Shown: piece after piece, positions 5,743 through 18,398 of the stretch
Numbering within the stretch: position 1 is the stretch's first letter
How the letters are laid out: each line of letters opens with the position of its first letter
From: a virus
Virus record (IMG/VR): IMGVR_UViG_3300032294_001736
Coordinates: 1 to 21,761 of that record
Reading direction: 5' to 3' (one strand)
Length of the DNA stretch: 21,761 nucleotides
Notes under the pieces: generated by a model
Told to the model about the DNA's origin: nothing
Databases searched by the model: none
Seen by the model: only the letters and a program-made list of their open reading frames with translations
Translations under genes and position numbers: made by a program

Positions 5743-6540
5743 ATGTCCACCATCGACGATCTTATCAACACGCTCACGGCGCAAACCCAGGCCGCCATGG
5801 GCACCGACACATCGCCATGGCAGCAGGAACTGCTTGAGACCATCAACCCGGAAAAACAGCGCCGCCGCAACATCGCCAAGGCGATACAGCAGGCATCGCT
5901 TGCCATGGCACAAACGCGCGGCAGCGTCCTTGATGGCCTCTCGGCCGCTGCGGCAACTGGCGCCGGCTCCTACATCACCGGGCAGCAGGAGTCAGAGGAT
6001 TACGCCGCCAAGGTGAAGCAGGCCATAGCCCTTGATCAGACCAAACAGCAGGACAGGCGCATGGCCATGTTGCTGGACGCCATTGGGGTGAACCAGAAAC
6101 AGGAAGACAACGCGCTGGCCAAGGCTGAAAGTAAGGCCAAAACCGCATGGTACGAGCGCCGGGGCGTGGATACCGCTGACGGGTCGCTGTCTCCCGCGCA
6201 AGCCGCCACCAACAAGCGCTTTGCCTTTACTCAGCTGGGCAATTACGAAAGCGAACTCCGCCGAAACCTTGTCCCGGAAGATCAGATTCCAGGCCTTGTT
6301 CAACAAAAGAAGGCTGAGCTTGAGCAGGCGTTTGGCGTAAGCCTCGACGGCGCACAGTCCGCCGCTCCGCAAGTCGGCGCTGCCGATCCAAACGTCACGC
6401 AGTTTGACCTGATGACCAATGGCGGCGGCCAGTCGCCGGGCATCACAAGTGACGCTGGGACCGCCGATGGCATCACCGCGGTAAACCCGCAGACCGGCGA
6501 ACGCGTTGTTTACAGGAACGGTCAATGGCTTCCCCTCTGA
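5743..6540 (+). CDS. Helical phage protein ending in a GERVVYRNGQW motif
   Basis: 265 aa from the ATG at 5743. Mostly alpha-helical and Gln/Ala-rich: residues about 25-115 form long amphipathic helices (NIAKAIQQASLAMAQTRG, QQDRRMAMLLDAIG). The last 17 residues carry NPQTGERVVYRNGQWLPL, a short C-terminal motif seen in many phage virion-associated proteins. It overlaps the giant polyvalent gene by 16 bases, so the two are probably translated together. No TM segment or catalytic signature. A packaged internal protein or a partner of the giant protein is the best guess from context; no specific family is assigned. Confidence 0.65.
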   Translation: MSTIDDLINTLTAQTQAAMGTDTSPWQQELLETINPEKQRRRNIAKAIQQASLAMAQTRGSVLDGLSAAAATGAGSYITGQQESEDYAAKVKQAIALDQTKQQDRRMAMLLDAIGVNQKQEDNALAKAESKAKTAWYERRGVDTADGSLSPAQAATNKRFAFTQLGNYESELRRNLVPEDQIPGLVQQKKAELEQAFGVSLDGAQSAAPQVGAADPNVTQFDLMTNGGGQSPGITSDAGTADGITAVNPQTGERVVYRNGQWLPL

Positions 6541-9500
6541 GTTCCCTGCCGCCTGGCTTCGTTCTGGAGACGCCCCCGGACAGCGCCAGACCCGCGCGTC
6601 CAAAGGCTCCCGCCCCGCCGCCCGGATTTGTGCTTGAGCAGCAACCGCCGACATTTGAGACAGTGCCATCCGTGCCGTTGCGGCGGCAGCAAGAAACGGC
6701 CCCGCCGCCTGGCTTTGTTCTGAAACAGGAAAAAGAACCGGCGGCACTTGGCGTTGGCGACTACGCCAGCGAGTTTGGCGGCGCTACCGTTCGCGGCGCT
6801 GCCGGTACAACGGCGGGAATGTTGCGCGGAGCCAATGTTCTCACTACCGACTCGCCAGACGAAATCAGGCGCGCCGAGGATGGCATAAGCCGCCTCAAGA
6901 CCATGACTGCCGAGCAAGCCACGGAATTTATGCGTTCGCTTCCCGCTAGGTTGTCCCCAGCTGTTGCGTTCAACTATCAGGTCGCTATACGAAAATTGTG
7001 GGACGGCAAAACTGATGAGGCCAAAAGCTATCTTGACCAGGCGCGCCGCTACACAGACACAAGGCCCATTGAGCAGCAAGGCCTTTCCAAGGCTGCAGCA
7101 AACATTGAAGGCGCGGCCAACGAGGCTTTTCCTCAAGACCCGCGATTCCGCGGTTCTGTTACAAGCGATCTCGGACAGGGGTTTGGATCAACGGCGGCAT
7201 TCCTGCCCATCGGCCTGTTGACCGGCGGAACTGGCGTTGCCGTGGCTGGCGCGGCCGCTGGCGCCGATCAGGGCTACCAAGAAGCAATCCGCGACTTGGC
7301 TGCCCAGCGGCGCGAAGATCGTGGCGAGGCCTACAATTCAGGTCTTGGCGCCGAGGCGCAGGTCAAGGCGCTGCAGGCGGGCCGGTTGAGCGCGCTTCCC
7401 GGCGTGTCCGAAGTGGTGCCGGTCGAGACCTTCATTCAGCAGGCTCCGCGCTTCATCCCCGGCCTGCGCCCCATTGCCAACTCTCCGGCGTTCAAGCGAT
7501 TTGCCAAAGCGTTCGGCCGCATTGGCACTCAGGTTTTAGCGGAAGGCGGTCAGGAGGCGTTCCAGACATGGGCCGGGAACGTCATCAACCAGATTACCGT
7601 TGACCCATCGCAGGCCCTTGACGAAAACGTCCTATACAATTTTGCCATAGGCGGTGCGGTTGGGGGCGGTATGCAGGCCGCCATGGAAGGCTATGGCGCA
7701 ACGCGTGGCACCGGCGAACCACCTCCACCCTCCGCCCCTCCGCCTCCGCGCAACCGGACGGAACCCCGCCTATTCCCCGACGATCCGCCCGGCCCGCAAG
7801 CCGGTCCCGCCACCCCGCCGCCGCAACAGGCCGCGCCCCAGGCAGATCAGCCCGCCCCGGCACCGTCCGCGCCGTCAGCGCCACCCGCACCGCCCCCCGG
7901 CTTTGTTCTGGAGGACGCGCCGCCGTCTGGCATTGACCCGGGCGATGAGGGCTATCTGCTAGGCGCAGGCTACACGCCGGAGCAGATCGCCGACATGAAT
8001 GTGCCAGAACGCGCAGCGGCGGTCCAGGAAGCCCGCCAGCAGGGCGCGACCCCCGTTACCCCATCCGCCGCGCCGCCGCCGCCAGGGACCGCGCCAAGGG
8101 CGCCTAGGGGCACCCGGCAGGCAAAGGCGACCATTGAGACCGCCCAAGACCTTGAGCCGGTCAGGCCGGTGGTCAATCCGGAGCCGTCCGAGGCCCAGGC
8201 CAGAGCGGGCAACTACCAGAAAGCCCACGTCCGCATTCACGGCCTTGACGTGTCCATTGAGAACCCGCGCGGCTCAATCCGGCGCGGCCGGGATGAGGAT
8301 GGCCGGGATTGGGCATCGCCAGAGCTTCCCGCCGACTACGGCTACATCAAGCGAACCACGGGCAAGGACGGCGATCATGTGGACGTCTATATCGGCCCCA
8401 GCCCGGAATCAGACCGGGTTTTCGTCATTGACCAGCTCAACCTGAAAACCGGGAAATTCGACGAGCACAAGAGCGTCCTTGGCGCGTCATCGTTGGGGCA
8501 GGCGGTTGATCTGTATGTGAACTCCTTCGACAATCCCACGCTCAAGCGCATTGGCGACGTGACCGAAATGTCGGTTGACGAGTTTCGCCAGTGGGTGAAG
8601 GAAGGCCGGAACACCAAGCGCCCCGCCGCCAAGGCCGGGATCGGCACGGTGACGCCCAATCCGCCGGAAGCCCCTAGTGAAATCGCTGGCGCCCCGGACG
8701 CCATGCAAGCGGCGGGCCAGATGCCGGTTGCCGCACCGCAGCAAGAACCCGGATCATTACCTAATTCCGTTTCGAACCCAGCAGATTCAACGTTTCAGGC
8801 CCCTTTTGACCAGTTTTCGTCTGAAACTGAATTCCCGGTTATTCAGGCTGAATTACCGGATCAGCCGCAAATTCCCGCACCGCAGCAAGACGCGCCGCGG
8901 TATAACCCGACCACAATCAGCGGCGAGGTGGACGGCGCGCTCAAGCGCTACCTTGGCGGCAACGGCCCGCTGACGCCGGAAGCCTTCGCCAAATTTGCCA
9001 AGATCGACGTGTCCGAGGCTGGCAAGGCCCTCCAATATGCAGGGCTTCGCGGCGGCATCATCATTGACAAGAATGGCAACTGGCGCAGGCCCAGGACGTT
9101 CAAGGGCCCGGCCAACGTGCTGGACTTCATCGCCTCGATCGGCGGCATCAGGGACGTGACCGGCGAGCTTCGCGGCATGGACCTGCCCAAGATGACGCAA
9201 TTCGGGCCGGTGGTGCGCAAGAAGGGCCTTCACCCCGACAGGGTGCGCGAGCAGCTGATCGAAGCCGGCTACCTGTTTGAGCCGGGCCGGGGAACCGATC
9301 GCCAGCAGCAGACCACCGTTGCCGACGTTTACGACCTGATTTCCCAGCACATGAGCGGCCTTCAGGTGGTTGCCGCCGAGGATCAGGCCGAGGCCGAGGC
9401 CATCCGCGTTCAGAAACTGAACGAAAACATGCCGGATGATTGGCAGCCGCAGAACCAGGTGCGGGCACGCTTTGGCGCAGAAGTCTGGTCTGACATCGAG

Positions 9501-12500
9501 GAATTCTTTGCCCGGTCTGGAACCACCGAGGAATCGTGGGGACCGGACGAATTGCGCAACGCGGCGCGGCTGATCGCCGGGGGCATGGAGCCAGATGACG
9601 CCTTTGAGAGGGCCGCCATACAGTATCACGCCACGCTTGAGGATACGGAGGGCTTGGACCCGGCGCTTGAGGCGGCCTTCCAGAACGGAAACCCCAATGT
9701 TATGGTGGCGTTTGAGGACGTGCCATTTCCTGATTTGGAGACAGCAACCAATGCAGATCAGCAGCAAGGACCACAAGAAACGGGCGATGGCGCTGGCCCG
9801 GCTGGCACGGATCGCCTCGACGGAGCAGGGCAAGCAGTTGATGCTGACACAGCAGAAGAAGTTCGAAGCCCTGGCGCGCGTGGCGGCCAAGAGGGAGGCC
9901 GAGGGCAAGATGCCGGGCCGGTAAGCCCCGCCGCCGAACCCGGCGCCGATGGCAGGCCGCAGCTTGTGATCCCCGGCGCCGAGCAGGATGTCCGGGGCGC
10001 CATGCAGAATGCGGCGAAAGCGCCCCTCAAGTCCAACTCCCCGCAGAAGGGCATGGACATCGGCATGTTCGGCTCCGAGCGCGACCAGACGGACATCTTT
10101 GACAAGAGGCCGGAGGAGGTTGATCCGGCCGCCTCATCGCCAAAACCAGAAACCTATGGCGATTCCAACAAGTTCGTGACCAAGGACCGCGCCGCCGAAT
10201 TGCGCGAAAAGCTGAAGGCCAAGCTGAAGAACCAGGTTTCCTCTGGCATTGATCCGGAAATGCTGGCTCTAGGCGCGGAGTTGGCCGCGTACCACATTGA
10301 AGCTGGCGCGCGGCGGTTTTCCGATTTTGCCCGCGTTATTGCCGCTGACTTGGGCGCCACGATCAAACAGGTTCGCCCCTATCTCAGATCGTGGTACAAT
10401 GGCGCGCGGGACATGATGGAGGACGCCGGCCTTGATGTGGCCGGGATGGACTCGCCAGATGAGGTGAGGGCCGCCCTTGCGGCTCTTGATGGGCAGAATG
10501 ACAATGGATCGGCAATCCAGAATAACGGCAAGCCGCAACTTGCGTTGCAGCAGGACGAAAAATTCCACCCGCTTGTCACGGCTTTCGTCAACTACTTTTC
10601 GCAGCCAGACGCCGCATTCGACACGATCACAGAAGCGCGAAAATTTGCGGCCGAGCGTGGTTTTGTAGCAAATCCCGGCACTGCCGAGGCAAAGGACCTT
10701 GACGAAAAGGTCGAACTCGCCATTGTGCTGACCGCCCGCACGATCATTGGCGCGTCCAAGGCCCGGCCCGCCAAAACTGCGTACCGTCGCCTAGTCGATC
10801 TTTATAACCGCCAGCCCAATCTCGGCGTTCGCACGTCTGAAAGCATGGCGGATCAGGCATATTCAACTCCTGCGCCGCTTGCCTTCATTGCATCCCGTCT
10901 TGCCGGCGTGCCCGGGGCCAAGGACGTCTTGGAGCCAACCGCAGGCAACGGCATGCTGCTTATTGAAGCCAGTCCATCCAGGGCTACCGTCAACGAAATT
11001 AACGACCGCCGCGCTGAAGCGCTCAAGGCGCAAGGTTTTCGCGTCACACAGAAAGACGCCGCAACGGGCAGTCTTCGCAAGTCGGATTATCCAGTCGATT
11101 CCGTCATCGCCAATCCGCCGTTTGGCGCGGTCAAGGAATCGGACGGGTCATCCAAGACATTTGACGTTGATGGCTGGACCACAACGCAGATTGACCATGC
11201 GATTGCGCTGAACACGCTTAAGACCATGAAAGACGATGGCCGCGCCGTTCTGATTGTTGGCTCAGTCAAAGAGGGGTCCGAAAAAAGCCGGTCGGATGGC
11301 TACAACACAAAGCAAAAACGAGAGTTTTACTGGAGGCTCTATCAGGGATATAACGTCACCGATCACTTCACGGTTGCGGGCGATCTCTACAAGCGCCAGG
11401 GCGCTGCATGGCCGGTCGATGTCATTGTAATTGATGGCCGGTCAAAATCGGCGCGACCGCTTCCAGCCGTGGAACTGCCCAAGGTCTATGACACTTGGGA
11501 ATCGCTTGAGGAGAAGTTGAATGAAGCTCCCGCTCAATCTGAAACCGCAACCGGACCGGCGGTCGCCGGAAACGAGGTATCTCGACCTTCTGGCGTCGGT
11601 AATGTCTCAGAAGCTGGGACAGAATTGGAAGCCGGAAGCCGCCCAAATCAGCGCCCTGATGGTGCGGGAAGGCCTGCTTCCCCACAGTCCGCCGTTGGTG
11701 GACAAGGAACAGTTTTTGATGGAGGCGTTCAGCGAGAACCCGATGGTGTGGGAAAACAGCAATCTCCCGAACCTGATCGCGGCCAAATGGCGCCCGGAAA
11801 ACGCCCTGACGGCGACGGAGGTCGCAAAGCACCTGTTTCTGGCCGAGAGCGCGTAGCACAGGACGCCGAGTCCGCGCAGCAGCCCTATCGGCCCATGTCG
11901 GGCCAGACATCGCTTGACACCAAGATTCCAACTAACATGGCCGCCGCCGTCGAAGAGTCGCTGCAGGACTTGGCCGACCGCCACGGCGACCTTGATGCGT
12001 GGCTCGAAAATGAACTGGGCTACAAAAAGGGGCAAATCGGCAAGTATCTGGCCGCCGAACAAGTCGATGCCGTAGCGCTGGCCCTTGACAACGTGAAGAA
12101 GGAAGCCGCCTTCATCATTGGCGACCAGACAGGCATTGGCAAGGGTCGTGTTGTTGCCGCAGCATTGCGTTACGCCATGCGCCAAGGGCTTGTGCCGATC
12201 TTTGTCACGGAGAAGCCAAATCTCTACGGCGACATCATCAGAGACCTGAACGACATTGGCGTTCAGGAAATGCTTGGCCGCGACCTGCGCCCGTTTCTCA
12301 CCAATTCCGGCGAATCCATTCCCCTCGATGACGAGGCCGTGGCTTGGTACGACGAGGCGCAGCGCGCCAAGGTCGAAGGACAGCCGTCGCCGCCAAAGCG
12401 CGGCAAGTTCTTGCGCGCCAGCGGCGGCGACCTTCACAAGCGCCAGATGGCCGCGCTGCAGCAGGAAGGAACCGGCAAGGATTTTGACATCATTTTCACC

Positions 12501-15500
12501 ACCTACGACCAGATGAACACGGTCAAGGGGCAAACCACCGACCGCCGCCGGCTGGTGGACGGACTTGCGGGCCGCGCCTTCATCGTTCTGGACGAAAGCC
12601 ACAATGCAGGCGGAACGGAGCCCAACGAACGCGGCCCCAAAAATGCGCCGGAAAGCCGATCCGATTTTCTCAAGAACGTGACGACCAAGGCAAAGGCCGT
12701 CATGTTCTCGTCGGCCACTTACGCCAAGCGTCCAGGCGTCATGGCGCTTTATGCCCGCACCGACATGGGCAAGGCGGTTGACAAGCCAAGCATGCTCGGC
12801 GATCTCATCGCCAAGGGCGGCGTGCCCATGCAGCAAGTCGTAGCCTCTATGCTCGCCAAGGCTGGCCAGTACATCCGCCGCGAACGCTCTTTTGACGGCG
12901 TGTCCTACGACGTCGAGCCAGTTACGGTTGATCTTAAAGCCTATGAGGCGGTCTCGACATCTCTTGCAGCAATTGCCCGTTTCGACATTGAACTCAAAAA
13001 AAGCGATGTTTGGAGCGATGTAAAGGAGGGATTGAAAGGCCAGGCCGAGGCGGCGGCGATGGATCCCGGAACCGGCGAAGCGTCGGTCAACTCGACCAAT
13101 TTCACGTCCCTCATGCACAACATCGTCAACCAGATGCTGCTGGCAATTAAGGTCAATGCCGTGGCAGACCGGGCAATTCAGGCGCTACGCGAAAACGAAA
13201 AGCCGGTCATCACGGTTGCCAACACAATGGGCGCGTTCCTCAAGAGCTACGCCGAGGACAACGACATCAAGGCTGGCAACGGGGTAACGCTGTCGTTCCG
13301 AGATGTCCTGCTCCGTTACCTTGAGCGCACACTCCGCCTCACCGTAAAGCGGCCAGACGGCACCAAGTATCACGTCCAAATCCCGCTGTCCGCCCTGCCG
13401 CCAAGAATGCAGAAAGCCTACGAGGACGCGCGGAACCAGGTTGATCAGATTGACACGGCAAATCTGCCAATTTCGCCCATAGACTGGCTGCGTCATCGAC
13501 TTGCCAGGGCGGGATACCGCGTTGGAGAAATCACCGGCCGCAAGGAAATCCTTGACTACGCCGGTCCAGATAATGCGTCGTTCGCGTTGCGCAGCGATTC
13601 AGAGGTAAGCCCCGCTGGCCGTCGCGTGACAATCGACAAGTACAACCGCGGCGACCTTGATGCCATGATCTTAAACCGTGCGGGATCAACCGGACTCTCG
13701 CTGCATGCGTCTTCCAAGTTTAAGGACCGGCGCCGCCGCCGGATGATCATTGCGCAGGCCGAACTGAACATCGACGTTCACATGCAAATGCTGGGCCGCG
13801 TCCACCGCACCGGGCAGGTTGTACCGCCTGCCTTTGTGCAAGCCTATGCCGATGTTCCCGCCGAAGCCCGGCCCGCCGCTGTGCTGGCAAAAAAAATGGC
13901 ATCACTAAACGCCAACACAACAGCGTCTCGCAAGTCGGCATTTTCGGCGGATGACGGCGTTGATTTCCTGAACGAATACGGCGATCAGGTCGCCCGCGAG
14001 TTCTTGGCTGAAAATCCGGACTTCAACCAGCTGCTTGACGTCAGTCTCGACCCGGAAAAGGAAACCGCCCGCGAACTTACCGGAAGATTGCTTCTTCTCC
14101 CGGTTGCCGATCAGCGCCGCGTCATCGACGAGATTACCGCCCGCTACAAGACGCTGATTGCAAACCTGGACGCCATGGGCGAAAACGCCCTTGAGGCAAA
14201 AACCGTTGACCTGTCCGCCAAGACGGTTGGCCGCCAAGTGTTGCGCCCGTCTGAGGGCGAAAGCCCGTTTACGCAATCGGTCATCCTTGAGGAAGTTGAG
14301 GTCAGGTCAGATGGCAAAGCTCTGCCAATGCCAGAGATTGTCAACAAGGCCGCCGAGGCCTTAGGCGCAGGCAAGGTTTCTACCGACAACCCCGAGTCGG
14401 CGCTGAACGAAATCGCGCGCACCGCCGACAAGGTGCGCCAGACCTTTGCCAAGAAGTGGCTTGACGACTTTGACCGCATGGTCGCCGACGAACTCAAGAA
14501 CACCAAGAGCGACGACGTTCGCTCCGAACGCCGCGAGAAGCACACGGCAAACCGTCAGCGCTTTAACGACTTGCTTGATGTCGTAATGCCAGGGCGTCGC
14601 GTTACGGTGAGGCGCGCAACGGAAGACGGCGAGCCGATTATCGGCATTGTGATGAACGTCGCCCGGCGTGGCCAGACCGGCGCGACAGGAAATCCGCTTG
14701 CCCTCGGCGCATGGACGGCAGAGATTGCCATTGCCGACAACGCGCAGCGTATGCAAATCCCGTTTTCTTCAATGATTATATCGGGAGAGGCTTACGAGGC
14801 CAGTCGGGCGCGGATCATTGTCGGCGCCCCTGATTGGGCCATGGGGATCAAGCAAACCGTCGAAGCATTCGACAGGGCGCGACAGACCGGCAAAGAAAGG
14901 CGCCACATCGTCACCGGCAACATCTTAGCCGGATTTGACCAGACCAGCGGGCGCGGGCAAATCATCAACTACACCGACAACGAAGGAAATGTGAAGCCCG
15001 GCATTCTTATGGCCCGCAATTTTGACCCCGCCGCGTTCCTCAAGGAGCGCGCCGTCCGGTTCAAATCTGCCGATCAAGTGATTGCCTTCCTCAAGCAACT
15101 GCCGGCCGCAGAAATCATGTCGCACGACAACGTGATAACGGTGCGCGCCAGCGGCACGTCCTACGAGATTGAAATGCCAGCCTCAAGGCAAACTGGCGGC
15201 ATTTACTTTTTGAACCCCGAGGTTCGCCGGAGCGCGCGCGACCAGTTTACAAAAATCGGTTCTCGCATGCGCTATCGCACCGCGTCAGAGCGCGAAGCCC
15301 AAACCGTCCTAGACGCAATGATGCGCGTGGGCGCCGTGTTTCAAACGACCGAGAATCAAACGGCTGCTGAGGCAATTATTAATGGCGGCCCGCCCCAGGC
15401 CCCGCTTTCCTCCCGCCCGCCGCAGGGCACGATGCAATCCGCGCCATCCTCTCCCGTCCTGAACAGCTTCCGTTTCGCAATTTCAGACCGGCAGAGCCGC

Positions 15501-18398
15501 GAGCTGACCGCCGAAATCAACCAGATCGCGCAGCGCATTCTTGGCCGCAGACTGGCGGCGGTGAACGTGACGCGTAGCCTTCCCGGCGACGAGGACGCCT
15601 ATTTCGACCCCAATACCGGCGTGATCTACATTGCCCTGCAATCGGTGCTGGACCCTAGGTTCAACATCCGCCACGAGGCGGTTCACGCATTGCGGCAGGC
15701 GGGCGTCATGAGCCAGCAGGAATGGGCCGTCCTGTCCCGCATGGCCAAGACCCGGTGGATTGAGGAATACGGCATCCGCGAGCGCTATGGCGACCTGTAC
15801 CGGGAGCGATTTGACATTGCGCCGGACCAGCTCGAAGAACTGATGGTCGAGGAAGCCATTGCCGACGCCATGGCGCAGCACGCCATGAAGCCGCCCGCCG
15901 ATGACGTGGTGTCGCGCATTTTCCAGCGCGTGCGCCAATTCCTCCGGGCCGTGGCCAACATGCTGGCCGGGCGCGGGTTCACAACGCCAGAGCAAATCCT
16001 GTCCAGCATTGAAACCGGCGGCATGGCACAGCGCCGTCAGGGCACGGGGCAGGGCCGTGGCTTCCTGGTGCCGCAGAGGCAGGAGAGCAGGCAATCGCCG
16101 CTTTCGTCCGTTCCGCCTGACGACGGTGGAGCGGGTGGGCGTTTCTATCAGGCGCAGGCCGCAACGACCGCTGAAGATCGCGCCATGGCAGAGTTTGCCG
16201 GCAACATCAACCTGAGCAAGATTGACGCCGCAGAGGACATAAAAGACGTCCTTCGAGATGCGGCCGAAAAGGCCGACGGCTTCATTGCGGCCCGCCGTGG
16301 CGTGGTTTCCCACGAGCAGACAAAACAGCTTGCCGAGCAGCTCGGCATGTCGCTTGAGCAACTCCTCAAGAGAAAGTCTGGCCAGGCATTCAATGACCAT
16401 GAGGCATACGCCGCGCGGGCGATGCTGGAGAAATCCGCCGAGATCGTAAAGAAGGCTGCCGCCAGAGCAAAAAACACTACGTCGGACGTTGACCGGGCTT
16501 ATTTCGCTCGCGTGTTGACGCGGCACGCCGCCATTCAGGAACAGGTGTCCGGCATCGCCGCCGAGGCGGGCCGGGCCTTGAACCAGTTCAAGATGATGGT
16601 GGGCGCCGATTACCTTCGGGGCGTTGCCGAAATGCTGTCGGAGAAAACGTCTCGCGGGAACATGGGGCCGGAAGCCATCAGGGACATGGCGGAAATGATC
16701 GATTCGCTCGACACCCCAGGCCAGGTTGGGCGAATGGCGCGCGACATGTTCAAGCCGCGCTTCCTTGACATGATCCGCGAGTACTACATCAACTCGCTGC
16801 TTTCGGGCCCTGCGACACAAACCGTCAACTTCATGTCCAATATGCTGGTGGCGCTGAACCAGATACCCGAGACATTTGTGGCCGAACAGATTGGCAAGCT
16901 GCATGGCGGAGACAAGGTTTCCCGCGGCGAAACCATGGCCCGCGCGATTGGCCTTCTTGAGGGATCGCGCGAAGGCTTGCAGCTGGCATGGATGGCGCTC
17001 AAGACGGGTGAGCCGCAAAGCCCGGAAACGCAGTTTGACCAGCCCATGCAAAAGGCCATTCCCGGAATAGCGGGAGAGGTGATCCGGCTTCCGTCGCGGC
17101 TCATGATGAGTTCGGACGAGTTTTTCAAAGCGGTCAATTACCGCGCCGAGCTTACCGCAATTGCCGTTCGCATGGCGCAGGCGGAGGGCTTGGACGGCGA
17201 CGCGCTAGCCGATCGCATATTGGATTTGCGGAACAACCCGACTCCGGCGATGGTCCAACGGGCGGCGGCGGCTGGAAAATATCAGACGTTCCAGAACAAG
17301 CTGGGCACCAAAGGCCAGACCTTGATGCGGTTCCGAGAGTCCTGGCAATTGTGGTGGCTCCTGCCGTTTCTGCGCACCCCCATCAACATTCTCAAATACG
17401 CCGCAGAAAGAAGCCCCATCGGGCCGCTCCTCATGAGCGAGGTTCGCCAGAACTTGCGTGGCGAAAATGGCGGCGCCGCGCGTGATACGCAGATTGCCAG
17501 AATTGCGCTGGGAACCGTCATGCTTGCCGGAATGGGCGCCATTGTAATGTCCGGCATGGCGACTGGCGGCGGCTCCGATGATGAGCGTGAAAAAGGCGTG
17601 ATGCGCGCGGATGGCTGGCAGCCCTATAGCCTGAACATCGGCGGGAAATACTACAGCTACCTGCGGTTTGATCCATTCTCCCTGCACCTTGGCATTGTCT
17701 CCGACATGGTTGAATTGAGGAACAAGATCAGCAAGGGTGAGTATGAAAATCTCGGGTGGATGCTGATGGCTTCGATCATCAACAACGTGACCGACAAGAC
17801 ATGGCTGAAATCCGCCACTGAATTTTCGCGGATGACCATGGACCCGAAAGCGTACATGGAAAACTACCTGTCGCATCTGGCGTCTGGATTTGTGCCGAAC
17901 TTCCTTGCGCAGATAGCCAGGGCGAAAGACCCGTCATTCCGCGATGCCAGAGGGGTTTTGGACAAGATCAAAGAAAGGATTCCGGGCCTCAGGGAAACCC
18001 TGCCGCAACGCTACGACATTTTTGGCGAGCCCATCACCGGCGAAGGCAATGTTGGCCCGGACCTGTTTTCTCCTGTGTATGTCTCTACGCAGAAGAACAA
18101 CCCGATCGCGCGGGCCATGGTGGATGCCAAATATTTCCCCGGAAAGCCGCGCCGCCACATCAACGGCCACGACCTCACAACAGAGCAGTACGCGGAGTAC
18201 ACGCAGATTTCCGGCAAAGAAGCTGTGCGCAGGCTTGAGCGCATGGTAAAATCTCCGTCGTGGTCGCAGCGCAGCCAGGACTCCAAGGAACGGGTATTGA
18301 AGCGCGGCTATGATCAGGCGCGCGAGATTGCCAGAAAAACGCTGATGCGAAAACATCCAGAGTTGCGAGCCAAGGCGGAGCAGACGGCGGGCCAATGA
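6525..18398 (+). CDS. Giant polyvalent phage protein: PPase-like / DNA methyltransferase / SNO-type helicase / HExxH peptidase
   Basis: 3957 aa in one uninterrupted frame. The start ATG has AGGAA 6 bases upstream and overlaps the previous gene. Order of parts: three PPGFVL motifs in the first 67 residues and a fourth at 457-463; a Gly/Ala-rich hydrophobic segment (about 220-245); Pro-rich linker; PPase-like domain (562-694); conserved helical/winged-type segments (about 793-960); SGIDPE...AYHIEAGARRFSDFA segment (about 1211-1299); methyltransferase; helicase; metallopeptidase; long C-terminal region with hydrophobic stretches near 3605-3630 and 3661-3682. This architecture matches the polyvalent proteins described for phages and conjugative elements; P1 DarB is the best-studied relative, packaged and injected to counter restriction. 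That role here is inferred. In two linkers (9751-9924 and 11521-11856) codon bias leaves this frame. Whether the chain stays whole or is cleaved is unknown. Confidence 0.9.
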   Translation: MASPLSSLPPGFVLETPPDSARPARPKAPAPPPGFVLEQQPPTFETVPSVPLRRQQETAPPPGFVLKQEKEPAALGVGDYASEFGGATVRGAAGTTAGMLRGANVLTTDSPDEIRRAEDGISRLKTMTAEQATEFMRSLPARLSPAVAFNYQVAIRKLWDGKTDEAKSYLDQARRYTDTRPIEQQGLSKAAANIEGAANEAFPQDPRFRGSVTSDLGQGFGSTAAFLPIGLLTGGTGVAVAGAAAGADQGYQEAIRDLAAQRREDRGEAYNSGLGAEAQVKALQAGRLSALPGVSEVVPVETFIQQAPRFIPGLRPIANSPAFKRFAKAFGRIGTQVLAEGGQEAFQTWAGNVINQITVDPSQALDENVLYNFAIGGAVGGGMQAAMEGYGATRGTGEPPPPSAPPPPRNRTEPRLFPDDPPGPQAGPATPPPQQAAPQADQPAPAPSAPSAPPAPPPGFVLEDAPPSGIDPGDEGYLLGAGYTPEQIADMNVPERAAAVQEARQQGATPVTPSAAPPPPGTAPRAPRGTRQAKATIETAQDLEPVRPVVNPEPSEAQARAGNYQKAHVRIHGLDVSIENPRGSIRRGRDEDGRDWASPELPADYGYIKRTTGKDGDHVDVYIGPSPESDRVFVIDQLNLKTGKFDEHKSVLGASSLGQAVDLYVNSFDNPTLKRIGDVTEMSVDEFRQWVKEGRNTKRPAAKAGIGTVTPNPPEAPSEIAGAPDAMQAAGQMPVAAPQQEPGSLPNSVSNPADSTFQAPFDQFSSETEFPVIQAELPDQPQIPAPQQDAPRYNPTTISGEVDGALKRYLGGNGPLTPEAFAKFAKIDVSEAGKALQYAGLRGGIIIDKNGNWRRPRTFKGPANVLDFIASIGGIRDVTGELRGMDLPKMTQFGPVVRKKGLHPDRVREQLIEAGYLFEPGRGTDRQQQTTVADVYDLISQHMSGLQVVAAEDQAEAEAIRVQKLNENMPDDWQPQNQVRARFGAEVWSDIEEFFARSGTTEESWGPDELRNAARLIAGGMEPDDAFERAAIQYHATLEDTEGLDPALEAAFQNGNPNVMVAFEDVPFPDLETATNADQQQGPQETGDGAGPAGTDRLDGAGQAVDADTAEEVRSPGARGGQEGGRGQDAGPVSPAAEPGADGRPQLVIPGAEQDVRGAMQNAAKAPLKSNSPQKGMDIGMFGSERDQTDIFDKRPEEVDPAASSPKPETYGDSNKFVTKDRAAELREKLKAKLKNQVSSGIDPEMLALGAELAAYHIEAGARRFSDFARVIAADLGATIKQVRPYLRSWYNGARDMMEDAGLDVAGMDSPDEVRAALAALDGQNDNGSAIQNNGKPQLALQQDEKFHPLVTAFVNYFSQPDAAFDTITEARKFAAERGFVANPGTAEAKDLDEKVELAIVLTARTIIGASKARPAKTAYRRLVDLYNRQPNLGVRTSESMADQAYSTPAPLAFIASRLAGVPGAKDVLEPTAGNGMLLIEASPSRATVNEINDRRAEALKAQGFRVTQKDAATGSLRKSDYPVDSVIANPPFGAVKESDGSSKTFDVDGWTTTQIDHAIALNTLKTMKDDGRAVLIVGSVKEGSEKSRSDGYNTKQKREFYWRLYQGYNVTDHFTVAGDLYKRQGAAWPVDVIVIDGRSKSARPLPAVELPKVYDTWESLEEKLNEAPAQSETATGPAVAGNEVSRPSGVGNVSEAGTELEAGSRPNQRPDGAGRPASPQSAVGGQGTVFDGGVQREPDGVGKQQSPEPDRGQMAPGKRPDGDGGRKAPVSGRERVAQDAESAQQPYRPMSGQTSLDTKIPTNMAAAVEESLQDLADRHGDLDAWLENELGYKKGQIGKYLAAEQVDAVALALDNVKKEAAFIIGDQTGIGKGRVVAAALRYAMRQGLVPIFVTEKPNLYGDIIRDLNDIGVQEMLGRDLRPFLTNSGESIPLDDEAVAWYDEAQRAKVEGQPSPPKRGKFLRASGGDLHKRQMAALQQEGTGKDFDIIFTTYDQMNTVKGQTTDRRRLVDGLAGRAFIVLDESHNAGGTEPNERGPKNAPESRSDFLKNVTTKAKAVMFSSATYAKRPGVMALYARTDMGKAVDKPSMLGDLIAKGGVPMQQVVASMLAKAGQYIRRERSFDGVSYDVEPVTVDLKAYEAVSTSLAAIARFDIELKKSDVWSDVKEGLKGQAEAAAMDPGTGEASVNSTNFTSLMHNIVNQMLLAIKVNAVADRAIQALRENEKPVITVANTMGAFLKSYAEDNDIKAGNGVTLSFRDVLLRYLERTLRLTVKRPDGTKYHVQIPLSALPPRMQKAYEDARNQVDQIDTANLPISPIDWLRHRLARAGYRVGEITGRKEILDYAGPDNASFALRSDSEVSPAGRRVTIDKYNRGDLDAMILNRAGSTGLSLHASSKFKDRRRRRMIIAQAELNIDVHMQMLGRVHRTGQVVPPAFVQAYADVPAEARPAAVLAKKMASLNANTTASRKSAFSADDGVDFLNEYGDQVAREFLAENPDFNQLLDVSLDPEKETARELTGRLLLLPVADQRRVIDEITARYKTLIANLDAMGENALEAKTVDLSAKTVGRQVLRPSEGESPFTQSVILEEVEVRSDGKALPMPEIVNKAAEALGAGKVSTDNPESALNEIARTADKVRQTFAKKWLDDFDRMVADELKNTKSDDVRSERREKHTANRQRFNDLLDVVMPGRRVTVRRATEDGEPIIGIVMNVARRGQTGATGNPLALGAWTAEIAIADNAQRMQIPFSSMIISGEAYEASRARIIVGAPDWAMGIKQTVEAFDRARQTGKERRHIVTGNILAGFDQTSGRGQIINYTDNEGNVKPGILMARNFDPAAFLKERAVRFKSADQVIAFLKQLPAAEIMSHDNVITVRASGTSYEIEMPASRQTGGIYFLNPEVRRSARDQFTKIGSRMRYRTASEREAQTVLDAMMRVGAVFQTTENQTAAEAIINGGPPQAPLSSRPPQGTMQSAPSSPVLNSFRFAISDRQSRELTAEINQIAQRILGRRLAAVNVTRSLPGDEDAYFDPNTGVIYIALQSVLDPRFNIRHEAVHALRQAGVMSQQEWAVLSRMAKTRWIEEYGIRERYGDLYRERFDIAPDQLEELMVEEAIADAMAQHAMKPPADDVVSRIFQRVRQFLRAVANMLAGRGFTTPEQILSSIETGGMAQRRQGTGQGRGFLVPQRQESRQSPLSSVPPDDGGAGGRFYQAQAATTAEDRAMAEFAGNINLSKIDAAEDIKDVLRDAAEKADGFIAARRGVVSHEQTKQLAEQLGMSLEQLLKRKSGQAFNDHEAYAARAMLEKSAEIVKKAAARAKNTTSDVDRAYFARVLTRHAAIQEQVSGIAAEAGRALNQFKMMVGADYLRGVAEMLSEKTSRGNMGPEAIRDMAEMIDSLDTPGQVGRMARDMFKPRFLDMIREYYINSLLSGPATQTVNFMSNMLVALNQIPETFVAEQIGKLHGGDKVSRGETMARAIGLLEGSREGLQLAWMALKTGEPQSPETQFDQPMQKAIPGIAGEVIRLPSRLMMSSDEFFKAVNYRAELTAIAVRMAQAEGLDGDALADRILDLRNNPTPAMVQRAAAAGKYQTFQNKLGTKGQTLMRFRESWQLWWLLPFLRTPINILKYAAERSPIGPLLMSEVRQNLRGENGGAARDTQIARIALGTVMLAGMGAIVMSGMATGGGSDDEREKGVMRADGWQPYSLNIGGKYYSYLRFDPFSLHLGIVSDMVELRNKISKGEYENLGWMLMASIINNVTDKTWLKSATEFSRMTMDPKAYMENYLSHLASGFVPNFLAQIARAKDPSFRDARGVLDKIKERIPGLRETLPQRYDIFGEPITGEGNVGPDLFSPVYVSTQKNNPIARAMVDAKYFPGKPRRHINGHDLTTEQYAEYTQISGKEAVRRLERMVKSPSWSQRSQDSKERVLKRGYDQAREIARKTLMRKHPELRAKAEQTAGQ
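8208..8606 (+). other. Domain: inorganic-pyrophosphatase-like (residues about 562-694 of the giant protein)
   Basis: The segment starts NYQKAHVRIHGLDVSIENPR and contains DYGYIKRTTGKDGDHVDVYI, then FVIDQLN, FDEHKSVLG and EMSVDEFRQWV. DGDHVDV (D615, D617, D620) resembles the D-x-D-x-x-D metal-binding signature of soluble pyrophosphatases. The domain is known in phage polyvalent proteins; its substrate there is not established. Confidence 0.75.
9751..9924 (+). CDS. Nested out-of-frame small basic protein (57 aa) inside the giant gene
   Basis: The ATG at 9751 opens a +1 frame relative to the giant gene and ends at TAA 9922-9924. A possible Shine-Dalgarno TTGGAG lies at 9735-9740. The product is basic and helical (KKRAMALARLARIASTEQG, KKFEALARVAAKREAEGK). 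By hand count, 53 of 57 third codon positions are G or C in this frame, against 25 of 58 in the giant frame over the same bases. There the giant protein is a Gly/Asp/Gln/Ala linker. The codon bias indicates that this frame is, or was until recently, the one under coding selection. I do not recognise a family. It could be an expressed nested gene or the relic of a separate gene later overrun by the giant frame. Confidence 0.6.
   Translation: MQISSKDHKKRAMALARLARIASTEQGKQLMLTQQKKFEALARVAAKREAEGKMPGR
10560..11519 (+). other. Domain: N6-adenine DNA methyltransferase (residues about 1346-1665)
   Basis: SAM-binding motif I reads EPTAGNGMLL (E1470 onward) and the catalytic motif IV reads NPPF (1530-1533), the canonical N6-adenine methylase signature. 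The preceding segment (KLKNQVSSGIDPE, AYHIEAGARRFSDFA) is the conserved companion often found in front of such methylases in polyvalent proteins. Both key motifs are intact, so activity is plausible. Confidence 0.88.
11508..11516 (+). promoter_or_regulatory. Shine-Dalgarno of the nested gene at 11521
   Basis: GAGGAGAAG lies inside the giant coding sequence with its AGGAG core about 7 bases before the ATG at 11521. It is among the strongest ribosome sites in the window and is well placed only for the nested frame. An in-frame TGA (11518-11520) sits directly before the ATG. Confidence 0.65.
11521..11856 (+). CDS. Nested out-of-frame protein (111 aa) inside the giant gene, unknown function
   Basis: The ATG at 11521 has a strong Shine-Dalgarno 7 bases upstream and opens the +1 frame relative to the giant gene, ending at TAG 11854-11856. 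The product has normal protein composition with regular hydrophobic spacing (YLDLLASVMSQKLGQNWKP, ISALMVREGLLP, LPNLIAAKWRPENALTATEV). In the giant frame the same bases give a Gly/Pro/Arg/Glu linker between methyltransferase and helicase. By hand count, 88 of 111 third positions are G/C in this frame and only 44 of 112 in the giant frame; the rest of the giant gene is clearly GC3-rich. I therefore call it a real or very recently real gene. No TM segment or known motif is seen. Its placement suggests a link to the DNA-modification module, by inference only. Confidence 0.7.
   Translation: MKLPLNLKPQPDRRSPETRYLDLLASVMSQKLGQNWKPEAAQISALMVREGLLPHSPPLVDKEQFLMEAFSENPMVWENSNLPNLIAAKWRPENALTATEVAKHLFLAESA
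11880..14220 (+). other. Domain: strawberry-notch-type SF2 helicase (residues about 1786-2566)
   Basis: Walker A is GDQTGIGKGR (K1873), Walker B DESH (2023-2026), motif III SSAT (2062-2065), a motif V-like GSTGLSLHAS (from 2387) and motif VI GRVHRTGQ (2424-2431). The lead-in YRPMSGQTSL and LAAEQVDAVALAL are typical of the SNO family. All motifs are intact. It follows the methylase, the same order as in DarB-like antirestriction proteins. Confidence 0.88.
15462..15990 (+). other. Domain: zincin metallopeptidase, MPTase-PolyVal type (residues about 2980-3156)
   Basis: FDPNTGVIYIAL precedes RHEAVHALRQAG, an HExxH zinc site (H3050, E3051, H3054). Downstream EEAIADAMAQH supplies a likely third ligand (E3109 or E3110). 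Metallopeptidases of this kind are known parts of polyvalent proteins and have been proposed to process the polypeptide or attack host proteins. Confidence 0.8.
16180..18395 (+). other. Domain: C-terminal region of the type ending giant phage proteins (residues about 3219-3957)
   Basis: Starts with AEFAGNINLSKIDAAEDIKD, continues through a helical core (REYYINSLLSGPATQTVNFM) and two hydrophobic stretches (WQLWWLLPFLRTPINIL; IALGTVMLAGMGAIVMSGM). It then contains YLRFDPFSLHLGI and a basic tail. It resembles the large polyvalent-associated C-terminal domain sometimes labelled LPD38; that label is from memory. The hydrophobic stretches could contact the membrane during ejection. Confidence 0.6.

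Follow-up and report, generated by a model that had tools for sequence, protein, structure and literature searches.

Evidence for a conserved +1-frame gene nested in a linker of a giant DarB-like polyvalent phage gene

The window, that is the whole stretch of DNA that was analysed, is a 21.8-kb virus record (IMGVR_UViG_3300032294_001736, 21,761 nucleotides). A giant gene on the + strand at 6525-18398 encodes a DarB-like polyvalent protein of 3957 aa. The protein matched the DarB-like family phrog_10089 (E=5.6e-79) and, since it combines DarB similarity with several conflict-related domains on a single phage polypeptide, qualifies as a DarB-like polyvalent protein. It includes an inorganic pyrophosphatase domain at aa 556-692 (E=3.6e-46), a methyltransferase-like region at about aa 1441-1583, a strawberry-notch-type helicase at aa 1846-2494 (helicase domains, E about 1e-21) and an internal-virion-protein-like C-terminus at aa 3521-3950.

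An ORF of 57 codons plus stop, with the product MQISSKDHKKRAMALARLARIASTEQGKQLMLTQQKKFEALARVAAKREAEGKMPGR, was located at 9751-9924 (+ strand) in the +1 frame of the giant gene, with an ATG at 9751 and the stop codon at 9922-9924. Its start and stop both lie inside 6525-18398 on the same strand, as is required of a fully overlapping nested gene. The stretch of giant frame that it overlaps is a Gly/Gln/Asp/Glu/Ala-rich linker (aa 1076-1133; 9750-9923, + strand) in which the G+C content of the wobble position is down to 43%; compared with the whole giant gene, this segment ranked among the lowest 2.2% by GC3 and the top 0.6% by GC1. A Shine-Dalgarno-like TTGGAG was present at 9735-9740 (+ strand; core GGAG at 9737-9740), 10 nt upstream of the ATG, as had been noted in a preliminary description of this DNA. 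The GGAG-to-ATG distance was the same in the homologue from contig L108 described below, and the expectation of an internal ribosome site with a start codon (GGAG-N10-ATG) was met in both, although a spacing of 10 nt exceeds the ideal and to that extent counts against a nested gene. Upstream of the ATG, the nested frame stays free of stops for 59 codons, back to 9574, and contains an additional ATG at 9595; the start was set at 9751 because the starts of the relatives align there.

The giant gene contains another nested +1 gene, of 111 aa, after the methyltransferase region (11521-11856, + strand). A homologue of it was found at the same place in a related locus, L015 (E=2.7e-17), with an identity of 39% in the nested frame and 24% in the giant frame. 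The product of 11521-11856 starts after GAGGAGAAGTTGA and is globular-looking.

The preliminary description had based its case for 9751-9924 partly on the contrast in GC3 between the two frames. The counts were confirmed (53 of 57 in the nested frame, 25 in the giant frame), but the nested value was not informative. When the codons were redrawn for the identical giant residues according to the giant's own usage (5000 draws), nested GC3 was 52.2±0.8 of 57, as observed, and 82% of the redraws were free of stops in the nested frame (P=0.82). Nested GC3 carries no information because the third position of the +1 frame is the first codon position of the giant, and it is high because Gly, Ala, Asp, Glu, Gln and Val codons begin with G or C. 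Both features follow from the giant residues and are no evidence for a gene. The real anomaly is the depressed wobble of the giant itself, with 25 G/C over the linker against 41.1±3.3 expected (0/5000 redraws). The codon log-odds of the nested over the giant frame were +13.2 against -16.3±5.5 in the null (0/5000), and the product contained 45 helix-forming residues against 35±3 in the +1-frame null (P=0.001).

Direct searches of IMG/VR and of phage records with the 57-aa sequence returned no match, and profile searches with nested sequences also gave none, apart from a two-sequence profile in IMG/VR. With tblastn of the phage records and genome scans no homologue was found; low-complexity filtering may mask such a sequence. 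The giant segment used alone as a query likewise gave no match, nor did plasmids searched with the giant region. Direct nested searches having failed, relatives were collected via the giant protein, using its helicase segment and alignments. In Pfam, PHROGs, NCBIfam and PADLOC the product reached no family cut-off, the last two being empty. The best Pfam match, to a proteasome subunit, scored 18.7 bits where the cut-off is 23; it fell in a helical repeat region and was judged spurious.

A homologue was identified on a separate viral contig (IMGVR_UViG_3300037307_000101, L108), which was reached by two independent routes, the giant domain and the nested sequence. The profile of two nested sequences returned this contig from IMG/VR with E=1e-14 among candidate stretches. 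The homologue lies at 10635-10805, in the same frame and at the same place, with no indels over the 57 codons. The giant frame of L108 reads NPNVMVTFDVPPFPDVETEANAVQQQG at this site, close to that of the window, and the +1 frame reads MQFSSKDHQKRAMAFGRLARMATLPETKDRLQKSQQKFEALARQAQKQEAKSSQTKA. Over the overlap, 30/57 residues were identical in the nested frame compared to 20/57 in the giant frame.

Upstream of the overlap, identities between the window and L108 at giant codon positions 1, 2 and 3 were 40, 44 and 25 of 60, which is the pattern of a gene under purifying selection. Inside the overlap the corresponding values were 35, 32 and 42 of 57, the best-kept position being the giant wobble, which is nested position 2. 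In this pair, 22 changes were synonymous in the nested frame, where 14.1±2.6 were expected (P=0.0026); changes synonymous in the giant frame showed no excess (12 against 16.2±2.7). Under a conservative null, in which the L108 giant protein was kept and every identical giant residue was given the window's codon, the nested BLOSUM similarity of 137 compared with 87±10 and was not reached in any of 20000 trials. Judged from sequence comparison, the nested frame is the better-conserved frame in the linker segment, so that the Gly/Gln/Asp linker of the giant is for the most part a shadow cast by the nested gene. L108 satisfied the criterion of selection on the inner-frame protein, the evidence from L015 and a further locus, L016, being weaker; against the nested-gene reading, L108 is the only clear homologue found. 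The second nested +1 gene claimed at this position is upheld by L108, whose homologue shares its frame and location and shows nested-frame selection. The protein search suggested at that time was successful only in the form of the two-sequence profile, and the outcome that was to refute the claim, no homologue together with stop codons in relatives, did not occur.

Remoter counterparts were present in L015 and L016 as +1 ORFs at the equivalent junction, after a shared upstream domain and before a PQxVIPGxE motif. This upstream domain is the giant-frame region of aa about 866-1060 (9120-9704, + strand; GGIRD..GEL..MD to DAFERAA), and the nested gene follows it in all four loci, namely the window, L108, L015 and L016. 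The giant domains downstream of the nested gene differ from those of the window in L108 and L015, which places the nested gene at a domain-exchange junction. The alignments of L015 and L016 to the 57-aa protein were ungapped and began at start codons (VKISRQTHLKAAKRL, MKYTPEQHLRTARQR, MQISSKDHKKRAMAL); the aligned GTG or ATG codons were accompanied by purine-rich motifs, and in-frame stops were found a few codons upstream. The similarity was remote (12/47 identical), with BLOSUM P values of 0.09 and 0.02 under the conservative null and 0.0001 under a free null, and each of the two, taken alone, would lend the nested gene only weak support. RNA folding around the four starts revealed no common feature.

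Nested ORFs were also scanned as a class in the 116 ORFs from the related loci that reach 1500 codons or more, mostly DarB-like giants. Some of these loci are near-duplicates, so the class counts are not independent events. At LLR≥15, 125 nested ORFs were found in the +1 frame, in 85 of the 116 long genes, compared to 0.33 in synonymous shuffles; for the +2 frame the same scan gave 7 compared to 2.3. The density in the giants was 9.4 per 100 kb in +1 and 0.2 in +2, and control genes of 250-1499 aa from the same loci had 1.1 nested ORFs per 100 kb in either frame. At LLR≥12, the nested ORFs fell into 49 groups, many of them singletons and the largest with 39, 30 and 12 members. They sit in hydrophilic linkers, and several families are conserved. 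Nested identity exceeded giant-linker identity in 11/11 groups with comparable pairs, and the giant wobble was the best-kept position in most of these. Shine-Dalgarno matches of at least 5 bases accompanied 47% of candidate nested starts compared to 12% of control sites, the best of several start codons having been taken in both sets.

The AlphaFold2 model of the 57-aa product consisted of two helices (residues 5-21 and 25-52; mean pLDDT 88), in agreement with the helical product first described. High scores come easily to short helical models, and the two-helix hairpin is to be taken as a prediction. Foldseek with this model gave only matches of E>2, typical of helical hairpins, and no significant solved structure; no family or fold match assigned a function to the product. 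The preliminary description had further inferred nucleic-acid binding from the basic character of the protein, which would be a functional alternative within the nested-gene reading and not exclusive of it. The product is indeed basic (net charge +9), and all four counterparts carry net charges of +8 to +14, but reading the linker in +1 already gives +12±2.5, so there is no excess. With basicity rejected as a sign by this frame-shadow null, and with no significant match to a DNA-binding family or fold, the inference lost its support. Nucleic-acid binding stays possible, if improbable, and the charge is no argument for it.

That 9751-9924 is a real gene is considered very probable. Held almost as firmly is the explanation as a whole, namely that it is a protein-coding nested +1 gene, translated by internal initiation, with a two-helix hairpin as its product. 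Ribosomes would initiate internally on the mRNA of the giant at GGAG-N10-ATG, translation being inferred in the absence of expression data, and a basic two-helix hairpin protein of 57 residues would be made together with the giant. This protein may be a co-produced accessory of the giant, such as an assembly, folding or regulatory partner, and would then most likely be linked to the upstream domain at aa about 866-1060. Since the only basis for an accessory role is conservation beside that domain in four phages, the role is put forward tentatively and may well prove wrong.

Alternatively, there may be no second gene, the open, high-GC3 +1 frame arising as a by-product where a G+C-rich gene encodes a linker rich in Gly, Ala, Asp and Gln. 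The giant residues alone predict nested GC3, the absence of stops and the basic charge, all of which could be explained in this way. The giant wobble GC and the codon log-odds could not, both being outside the 5000 simulations; nor could the L108 conservation pattern, which is that of the nested frame, or the near absence of such ORFs from the synonymous shuffles of 116 long genes. A by-product is accordingly regarded as very unlikely. Little better can be said for entry into the nested frame by ribosomal frameshifting, which would yield a shortened giant with an alternative C-terminus and no free small protein. The 59 open codons 5' of the ATG in the window would permit a shift, and a different nested family in phage PBC5 shares its frame with the upstream half of that giant; however, the stops a few codons before the starts of L015 and L016 leave almost no room for one, the similarity begins exactly at the start codon, and nested starts of the class are enriched in ribosome-site motifs. 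Frameshift access is unlikely, and as a replacement for the small protein it can be given very little weight. Two compensating indels or assembly errors that shifted a normal giant stretch out of frame would fit a nested frame with the codon signature of coding sequence, but are scarcely credible given that in the separate assemblies L108, L015 and L016 the two frames stand in the same relation and the giant frame is uninterrupted, that the nested frame terminates in its own stop, and that no relative was found with the helix in the giant frame.

Overprinted genes are familiar from phiX174, in which E lies within D and B within A. The nested gene at 9751-9924 resembles these in its full overlap, shifted frame and shared strand. 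It differs from that small compact genome in that the outer frame is a spacer between the domains of the giant and the inner frame is better conserved. In tailed phages, Rz1 (o-spanin) genes are embedded inside Rz (PMC6139136), and gp75/gp76 of JC1 is an example of this type (PMC9144972). As with Rz1 in Rz, a small gene with an internal start is fully contained in a longer phage gene that is read in a different frame. Unlike the 57-aa product, which matches no such family, Rz1 is a lipoprotein lysis partner in a short gene, whereas 9751-9924 occupies a linker within a polyvalent gene of 12 kb that holds at least one more nested gene. An Rz1-type o-spanin was rejected, as the product is without cysteine (no lipobox) and is encoded within a DarB-like gene. 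Across virus genomes in general, the median +1 overlap spans 14 nt (PMC8903798), unlike the overlaps found here, which are 150-400 nt and repeated within one gene.

The host gene belongs with the multi-domain DarB-like and polyvalent phage proteins, as described by Iyer et al. 2017 (PMC5512222), a paper in which a text search found no mention of nested genes in linkers. Nested genes in giant genes are likewise absent from the passages found in the JC1 paper (PMC9144972), and the open-licence literature gave no description of such genes in DarB-like or polyvalent genes, which is not proof of absence. Embedded phage genes are already known; nested genes in DarB-like giant linkers were not found described. 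The nested proteins are missing from annotation, also in those phage records that were checked, because gene callers suppress ORFs inside longer genes. If translated, they would enlarge the protein repertoire of phages with a giant DarB-like protein by dozens of small families, of which several are conserved, and would explain the Gly/Gln/Arg/Asp low-complexity look of the linkers. According to the JC1 paper (PMC9144972), the giant DarB-like protein is virion-associated, and no DdrA, DdrB, Hdf or Ulx homologues are reported for the JC1 group. The missing partners of DarB-type antirestriction could be sought among the nested proteins, a link that is inference. It is a real possibility, though slightly less likely than not, that the linkers of polyvalent giants are as a rule frame shadows of small +1 genes, which would form an unannotated, co-translated set of helical accessories for the virion-delivered giant and were possibly small genes that predate the fusion of the domain genes.

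The largest nested family, family A (MNLNNW..A..HWK...P..Y..L...G.L..AL..AAE.T..E...L...G....EAWEM.RE.YLFPPEE), is in the +1 frame after the aa 1190-1341 domain. It was found at 9461-9784 in L002, at 10022-10336 in L009 and in L003, L005, L007, L010 and others. Its hosts are giants of Klebsiella, Erwinia, Agrobacterium and Ochrobactrum phages, where it is unannotated; in the phage records that matched it, only the giant gene is annotated. In phage PBC5 (L013, 9394-9702), family A is read in the frame in which orf33 ends, and the giant linker continues in another frame, leading towards orf23. The PBC5 giant is split by a shift of one base, which may be genuine or a sequencing error, and phrog_938 seems to contain the orf33/family A fusion. 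A second recurring +1 family, family B (TLQ.W..H......P..D..R...L.QARQIIREK), is nested in the 3' part of giant genes, at 15977-16111 in L007, 15970-16128 in L013, 11118-11237 in L112 and in L101 and L102. Nested ORFs were also seen in an earlier linker (L004 7427-7600, L006 7895-8011, L009 7841-7978 and L015 6945-7154); all of these have ..LH as their last residues, as though their stop codons lay within a conserved giant motif.
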